This document shows, piece after piece, positions 8,347 through 54,974 of a stretch of 62,493 bases of DNA. Each line of letters opens with the position of its first letter. Position 1 is the first letter of the stretch. The notes below the pieces were generated by a model that saw nothing but the letters and a program-made list of their open reading frames with translations, was not told where the DNA came from and searched no databases. This DNA comes from Alphaproteobacteria bacterium (GTDB lineage: Bacteria; Pseudomonadota; Alphaproteobacteria; Micropepsales; Micropepsaceae). The position numbers and the translations under genes were made by a program. The stretch spans positions 1 through 62,493 of the forward strand of contig JAEUML010000289.1 of the NCBI GenBank assembly GCA_016792785.1, in the 5' to 3' direction.

Positions 8347-8421
8347 TGGTAGCAGCGGGGTGATTTGAACACCCGACCAAGGGATTATGATTCCCCTGCT
8401 CTACCACTGAGCTACGCTGCC
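8347..8421 (-). tRNA. tRNA with CAU anticodon (probably elongator Met; Ile2 possible)
   Basis: On the minus strand a full cloverleaf can be drawn: acceptor GGCAGCG pairing with CGCTGCT (first pair G-U), D-arm GCTC/GAGC, anticodon stem GGGGA/TCCCT with loop ATCATAA (anticodon CAT), T-arm GGGTG/CACCC with TTCAAAT, discriminator A and an encoded CCA. CAU tRNAs are initiator Met, elongator Met or lysidine-modified Ile2. The G1-U72 pair is unlike a typical initiator. The variable region resembles Ile2, so the identity is left open. Confidence 0.9.
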
Positions 8422-28473: not shown

Positions 28474-28503
28474 TTGACATCGTGGAACAAAATAGGAACA
28501 TAT
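28474..28503 (+). promoter_or_regulatory. SOS promoter with LexA box (GAAC-N7-GAAC) for the SRAP gene
   Basis: A -35 TTGACA (28474-28479) and a -10-like ACATAT (28498-28503) flank the direct repeat GAAC-AAAATAG-GAAC at 28485-28499. GTTC-N7-GTTC (its complement) is the alphaproteobacterial LexA operator. Its place inside the spacer would let LexA block RNA polymerase, so the downstream gene should be DNA-damage inducible. Confidence 0.8.
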
Positions 28504-28539
28504 CGGCCAGGGGCGCACGCGACAGATCAGGTAGAGACG

Positions 28540-29220
28540 ATGTTCGGACGACGCGACACGAAAGACCCCACGAAGCTTCTCAAGCTGCACAGCAACGATT
28601 GGCGCCAGGGCGAACTGCTGCGCGTGACGCCGCGCCGCCGCTGGGACACCGACCCGACGGCGACCCGCATGGTGATCCGCCGCCACGACGCGGGAGAGTT
28701 CGCACTCGCACCCATGCGCTGGGGCCTGACGCCCGAACGGCACACGGACGAGGAAAAACTGCGTCCGCTGATCACGGTGCGTGCCGAGACACTGGCCGGC
28801 CACATCGAGTGGCGCCGTCTTCTGAACGCCCGGCGCTGCGTGGTGCCGGCCGATCAGTTCTTCGAGTGGATGCGGGTGAACGGCGTTAGAACGCGCGAAT
28901 ACGGCTTCAAGCTCAAATCCCGCCGCCCGATGATGATCGCGGCGCTATGGAACCGAACGGTTTCGCCGACGGGCAAGCCGGCGGATGCTTTTGCCTACAT
29001 CTCGTGCCAGGCGAACAGGCTGGTCTCGCTGGTGCACGACCGCATGCCGGTGATCCTGGACGACGCAAGCATGGCGGCCTGGTTCAATCCGGACGCCACA
29101 CTCGAAGACCTGCTCGCGCTTCTCAAGCCCTGCGACGCGAGCCTACTCGACTGCCAACTCGCCGGCGAAACGGCCCGCCCCAAACCGCATCAGCCGTCGC
29201 TGTTTGCGAGTGCCGCCTGA
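28540..29220 (+). CDS. SRAP (YedK/HMCES) family protein lacking the catalytic Cys2
   Basis: 226 aa from the ATG at 28540; any earlier start would lie inside the promoter. SRAP proteins cap abasic sites in single-stranded DNA through Cys2 after removal of Met1. The fold is clear: MRWGLTPER, RAETL, CVVPADQFFEW, VHDRMPVILDD. Glu109 and His166 of the active site are kept. But the N-terminus reads MFGRR where the family has MCGR, so residue 2 is Phe, and the Asn of LINARAET is Thr79. Crosslinking through Cys2 should be impossible. An SOS box upstream ties it to DNA damage all the same. Confidence 0.85.
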   Translation: MFGRRDTKDPTKLLKLHSNDWRQGELLRVTPRRRWDTDPTATRMVIRRHDAGEFALAPMRWGLTPERHTDEEKLRPLITVRAETLAGHIEWRRLLNARRCVVPADQFFEWMRVNGVRTREYGFKLKSRRPMMIAALWNRTVSPTGKPADAFAYISCQANRLVSLVHDRMPVILDDASMAAWFNPDATLEDLLALLKPCDASLLDCQLAGETARPKPHQPSLFASAA

Positions 29221-54725: not shown

Positions 54726-54923
54726 GGGCTACTCTCCTTGGGTTCGTGTCCCATTGGGCTCCAAGCCCCAATCGGACAGCGCCTATGTATCGGGGTTGAA
54801 GACGAACCGCCACGAAGCAGCGGTCACACACGGCGTTGTTGTCCACCGTTCATCCAGGCGCCAAAATTGCTGCGCCTGCGAATAGCATTTGACCGTGCCG
54901 GTGAATCGCGCGACAAAGCCCGC

Positions 54924-54968
54924 GGGACACGTCCCCCCAACGGGATGCGCCCATTCTGTAAGGAATGG
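54924..54968 (+). ncRNA. serC leader-like RNA structure overlapping the serC ribosome-binding site
   Basis: Three small hairpins stand in a row just before serC: GGGAC-AC-GTCCC (54924-54935), GGG-ATGCG-CCC at 54942-54952, and CCATTC-TGTAAG-GAATGG (54951-54968). The last encloses the AAGGA ribosome-binding site. The known alphaproteobacterial serC leader lies before serC-serA operons, and its final stem covers the ribosome-binding site, as here. Hairpins two and three share bases and could alternate. Confidence 0.6.
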
Positions 54969-54974
54969 ATCAAA

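Follow-up and report, generated by a model that had tools for sequence, protein, structure and literature searches.

A second SRAP gene downstream of a LexA box

The window, that is, the whole stretch of DNA that was analysed (62,493 nt of the alphaproteobacterial contig JAEUML010000289.1), contains an open reading frame that starts with an ATG at 28540, stops at 29218–29220 and encodes a protein of 226 aa. The product scores 139.3 bits with the Pfam SRAP profile (PF02586; cut-off 27.1), it is also homologous by sequence to solved SRAPs, and its predicted model matches SRAP structures with Z-scores of 16.6–20.7 over 170–195 residues. By descent and by fold, the protein belongs to the SRAP superfamily. 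The gene and its features are listed here.

28474–28479, forward strand: TTGACA, putative −35 hexamer, with the LexA box starting 5 bp downstream; TTGAC is invariant in the six orthologues
28485–28499, no strand assigned: LexA box GAACAAAATAGGAAC (GAAC-N7-GAAC); boxes of this kind occur in all six orthologues and twice upstream of lexA
28530–28539, forward strand: putative ribosome-binding region GGTAGAGACG before the ATG, weak and assigned by eye
28540–29220, forward strand: coding sequence of the Cys2-less SRAP paralogue (MFGRR...QPSLFASAA), from the open reading frame, the Pfam SRAP match and orthologues over residues 1–226
28543–28545, forward strand: codon 2, Phe replacing the catalytic Cys2; Phe in 6/6, Cys in 72/72 other SRAPs (a set chosen for Cys, see below)
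28774–28776, forward strand: Thr79, aligned with Asn75 of YedK; T/A/S/S/N/T in the orthologues
28864–28866, forward strand: Glu109, aligned counterpart of YedK Glu105; invariant
29035–29037, forward strand: His166, aligned counterpart of YedK His160; invariant within the subfamily
29191–29205, forward strand: QPSLF, a pentapeptide of the beta-clamp-binding type in a tail predicted to be disordered; invariant in 6/6 orthologues

Elsewhere in the window lie a serC leader RNA (RF00517, above the gathering score; 54920–54972, forward strand) and a tRNA-Met gene with anticodon CAT (8347–8421, reverse strand).

An earlier note on this DNA had pointed out that the protein begins MFGRR instead of MCGR, and asked whether Phe2 is conserved. 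Cys2 is indeed absent. Orthologues from five other species of the genus, 54–64% identical over their full length, begin MFGRR, MFAKR, MFGKR, MFGKR and MLFAKR, so that the aligned position is Phe in all six proteins. The note had also allowed for a different true start giving MC; we found no such in-frame start upstream, where the frame lacks any Cys and shows no conservation across the orthologues, and we rejected this option. A base-call error at codon 2 was rejected as well, because Cys2 is missing from the orthologues of all five further genomes too.

The active site is partly retained

Cysteine as the second residue has been called “absolutely conserved” in SRAP proteins (PMC3765255). Because this defining residue of the YedK/HMCES-type crosslinkers is missing, we do not assign the protein to that group. 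The 72 alphaproteobacterial SRAPs used for comparison all carry Cys2, a count that is no unbiased census since they were chosen by a start-motif filter demanding Cys. The filter dropped a single sequence, L078, and another, L014, was left out by hand for its unclear start. Neither was accepted as a Cys2-less relative: the sequence of L078 is MCGRVIQSS followed by an in-frame stop, that of L014 ICSRYS.

Alignment with these 72 proteins shows that the window protein also keeps Trp61, Arg168 and Pro170, and within the subfamily Phe2 and Arg5 are invariant at the N terminus. Arg81 is nearly invariant in canonical SRAPs but is replaced by Gln or Ala in two of the orthologues, and abasic-site binding may therefore be weakened. 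The placement of Thr79 at the conserved Asn position, and the presence of Glu109 and His166, were read correctly in the earlier note, but it overstated how intact the active site is, given the variation at the Asn position and at Arg81.

Could another nucleophile stand in for Cys2? The candidate is Cys156, the sole invariant cysteine of the six orthologues, at a position where canonical SRAPs mostly have Thr. Seven canonical SRAPs, though, have Cys there too, beside Cys2. Cys156 also adjoins residue 155, the match of the conserved canonical Thr, and by strand alternation it probably faces the other way; a thiazolidine, moreover, is impossible without an N-terminal cysteine. We consider this substitution very unlikely.

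Distribution and selection of the subfamily

The subfamily was found in this genus only, in 6 of 11 genomes, most of the six being fragmented assemblies. Our searches covered one genome per species and a sample of species, and returned no member among the 85 other genomes of the family (the whole order in the data searched), nor in the class sample or the phylum sample. A scan of contigs recovered two loci only, matching two genomes of the same genus that had already been counted. An origin from phages or plasmids was rejected, as these contain no close relative and all matches fall below 60% identity; viral contigs scanned with two short patterns also yielded no relative.

The genomic setting is stable. 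The same APC permease gene adjoins the SRAP gene in all six carriers, with one extra gene intervening in two of them, and fliJ-fliI flanks the other side in five. In genome G006, fliJ and the SRAP gene are separated by two small genes (L142:1699-2417) that by eye resemble a VapB/VapC (PIN) toxin-antitoxin pair. Three other members of the genus have fliJ and cleanly lack the SRAP paralogue beside it.

The six orthologues are under purifying selection, with pairwise NG86 dN/dS of about 0.18–0.40, similar to the canonical SRAPs of the genus. In the phylogenetic tree they form a clade with 100/100 support; its stem measures 1.78 substitutions per site, and the branches within the clade are short. 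A long stem followed by short inner branches is the pattern expected of a single change of role and subsequent constraint.

These data bear directly on the possibility that we are looking at a decaying or mis-assembled canonical SRAP gene. Its absence beside fliJ in three genus members does suggest that the gene is dispensable. But the frame is open in six species, dN/dS is well below 1, and the promoter core, N terminus and tail are invariant; the orthologues refute both decay and mis-assembly, as all six would have to be artefacts, and we regard this explanation as hardly credible.

The earlier note had suggested looking in the same genome for a second SRAP that retains Cys2, and there is one: a normal SRAP (MCGRFTQYFTY...) is encoded on another contig of the window's own genome. 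The same holds for the remaining five carriers, whose genomes each encode one or more SRAPs with Cys2. The Cys2-less protein is a paralogue of the canonical SRAP.

The same bacterial family contains a second odd SRAP subfamily (MCGKFTQ..., for example L086:1384-2052), comprising L016, L026, L030, L031, L076, L082, L086, L087, L090, L092 and L094–L099. It keeps Cys2 and the Glu, and in 16/16 members Asn75 is replaced by His, His160 by Thr and Glu-Trp by Glu-Gly; most end in QxxLF.

A conserved promoter with a LexA box

The LexA box that the earlier note had reported is confirmed; it lies 40 bp upstream of the ATG, and the genome's own lexA gene is preceded by two boxes of the same GAAC-N7-GAAC form. 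Across the six orthologues, TTGAC, GAACAAA and GAACA do not vary, in contrast to most of the DNA around them. The argument that expression under SOS control speaks against simple decay is borne out, since all six orthologues share this promoter anatomy. Of the 72 SRAPs with Cys2, only one (L074 in genome G009) has a LexA-type box within 160 bp; with that single exception, the SRAP under a LexA box in the genus is therefore the Cys2-less one. We infer from the conserved promoter anatomy that LexA represses the paralogue and that DNA damage would release it.

A further box, 311 bp upstream of the window genome's own canonical SRAP, was taken as probably due to chance. Another LexA-type box (L107, near 1565) lies 24 bp before a gene whose product by eye resembles a radical-SAM (SplB-like) protein, likely a further SOS gene.

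A clamp-type motif in the C-terminal tail

The bacterial clamp-binding consensus is QL(S/D)LF (PMC9690074). QPSLF, with Pro in second place, conforms to this type in all six proteins and is followed by 4–5 residues to the C terminus; canonical tails that carry such a motif end at it. In 37 of the 72 ordinary alphaproteobacterial SRAPs, which are related to one another and so are not 72 independent cases, the last five residues read QxxL(F/L), always at the very end (L040:1420-2154, L062:1429-2145 and L071:1417-2157 are examples). Chance would produce this in 0.3–0.6% of tails, and among 16,869 internal positions the pattern occurs twice. In humans, HMCES contacts PCNA by way of a PIP motif. 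The literature that we searched reports no contact between an SRAP and the clamp and no Cys2-less SRAP. The presence of a clamp-type tail on half of the ordinary alphaproteobacterial SRAPs in our comparison as well suggests that the sliding clamp brings bacterial SRAPs to forks.

A tail of this kind could also serve a protein that acts mainly as an adaptor, an SRAP-like accessory subunit of a clamp-bound translesion polymerase (Pol IV or ImuB-DnaE2) for which abasic DNA would matter little. One study (PMC12926913) proposes SRAP-like proteins as PolY-associated subunits. The genus has Pol IV and mostly also a second IMS-domain protein, which is divergent and similar to ImuB in length, and the residues of the abasic-site pocket are partly relaxed. 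In the assembly that contains the window, however, the second IMS protein did not turn up, the recognised neighbours of the orthologues (the APC permease and fliJ-fliI) include no polymerase gene, and the invariant Glu and His argue for a retained pocket. On this balance, we consider an adaptor role unlikely.

Fold model, charge and a lost core motif

The AlphaFold2 model of the window protein has a mean pLDDT of 82.5, and its best structural matches include 2f20 (the top match, Z 20.7) and the YedK C2A-DNA complex (Z 18.4). Residues 1–3, 30–33 and 212–226 score below 50, and the first strand is missing. By comparison, the canonical SRAP of the same genome, predicted from the same sequences, reached 94.9 with a confident first strand. 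From this difference, the Cys2 end of the active site looks dismantled or rearranged, with the Glu/His side kept. Only six close sequences stand behind the low-confidence N-terminal third of the model, and the pLDDT gap may stem in part from this shallow close alignment.

The C-terminal VxxxVN..ND segment of canonical SRAPs, which human HMCES and E. coli YedK share, is lost in the subfamily; a VN..ND regular expression gave one chance-like match, in L006. The six proteins have also become basic, with calculated charges of +7 to +11, where four SRAPs of the genus that carry Cys2 have +1 to +3, and eight Arg/Lys residues are newly invariant (R5, K12, R28, R32, R43, R93, R119 and R129). The fold, described earlier as intact, is so in its core, but the N-terminal strand, which bears Cys2 in canonical SRAPs, is not confidently modelled and the VN..ND motif is gone. 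That loss, the gain of basic residues and the clamp-type tail had escaped the earlier reading.

A proposed crosslink-independent role at damaged forks

Most likely, the second SRAP copy would do a different job at stalled replication forks. Our preferred reading, to which we give a probability of about 0.5, is that of an SOS-induced, clamp-tethered SRAP paralogue that would bind DNA reversibly at damaged forks without forming a thiazolidine crosslink. The Cys2-less protein would then be a neofunctionalised paralogue. From the promoter anatomy, LexA repression would be lifted by DNA damage; the fold, the kept residues and the positive charge suggest that the SRAP core would bind single-stranded DNA or single-strand/double-strand junctions at stalled forks; and the flexible QPSLF tail, going by its motif, may tether the protein to the beta sliding clamp. 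Methionine aminopeptidase is not expected to remove Met before Phe, so Met1 is probably retained. With Phe at residue 2 offering no thiol to close the ring, and with Met1 probably still in place, the YedK/HMCES crosslink should be unable to form, as suggested by published mutants of YedK, which fail to crosslink stably once the thiol of Cys2 is gone (PMC9436759). It is for these two reasons that we favour a reversible, clamp-tethered binder. Acting in the SOS phase alongside the Cys2-bearing SRAP, it might either shield sites for a short time without leaving a protein adduct, or keep them open for clamp-bound translesion polymerases.

The same mutant work raises another possibility, an enzymatic one. 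Without its thiol, the N-terminal amine of YedK still makes a Schiff base that leads to strand cleavage, Glu105 and His160 open the abasic sugar ring, and for its lyase activity the C2A protein needs Glu105 and, in part, His160 (PMC9436759). The window protein could likewise be an SOS-induced AP lyase, in which Glu109 and His166 would open the sugar, the amine at the N terminus (that of Met1, or of residue 2 if exposed) would form the Schiff base, and, as no thiol would trap it, beta-elimination would cut the DNA. The strongest point for a lyase is that Glu109 and His166 are invariant, and this would suit catalysis no less than it suits passive binding; the invariance of Phe2 and Arg5 points the same way. 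On the other side, Met probably stays before Phe, which would displace the amine outwards by one residue, Asn at position 79 and Arg81 are not kept, and the model does not confidently place the N terminus in the pocket. We judge a lyase unlikely, though it is the strongest alternative to our preferred reading, ahead of the polymerase adaptor.

Somewhat speculatively, a suicide-type shield for abasic sites may, through the loss of Cys2, have become an enzyme or competitor capable of multiple turnovers, either an AP lyase or a reversible cap, which the SOS response would induce, the clamp would deliver, and which would oppose the canonical SRAP at forks of the same cell. As for the earlier interpretation as a whole, the Phe in all six orthologues, the second SRAP and the conserved promoter anatomy speak in its favour and exclude simple decay, and the intactness of the active site was claimed too strongly.

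Comparison with known systems

SRAP function has so far been explained by a covalent bond through Cys2. A conserved and selected Cys2-less subfamily, with an SOS promoter and accompanied by a Cys2-bearing SRAP in the same cell, suggests a crosslink-independent use of the fold, and nature here offers a way to test which use this is.

The window protein resembles YedK and HMCES (PF02586) in fold, descent, the active-site Glu and His, Trp61, Arg168-Met-Pro and a link to SOS. It differs from them in lacking Cys2, so that a thiazolidine crosslink is not expected, in its relaxed Asn and Arg81 positions, in the loss of VN..ND, in its strongly basic character and in having a LexA box of its own. The laboratory mutant YedK C2A (PDB 8d2m) is likewise an SRAP core that has no thiol and keeps Glu and His, but it is engineered and exposes Ala2 at its N terminus, whereas the window protein is natural and conserved and probably retains Met-Phe. 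The SRAP-like subunits of UmuC-like polymerases (PMC12926913) are also SRAP-related and would share a link to translesion synthesis; unlike these, the window gene has no polymerase neighbour. With the QL(S/D)LF beta-clamp binders, finally, the protein shares QPSLF in a probably disordered C-terminal tail, a putative clamp-binding site that differs in its 4–5 trailing residues.
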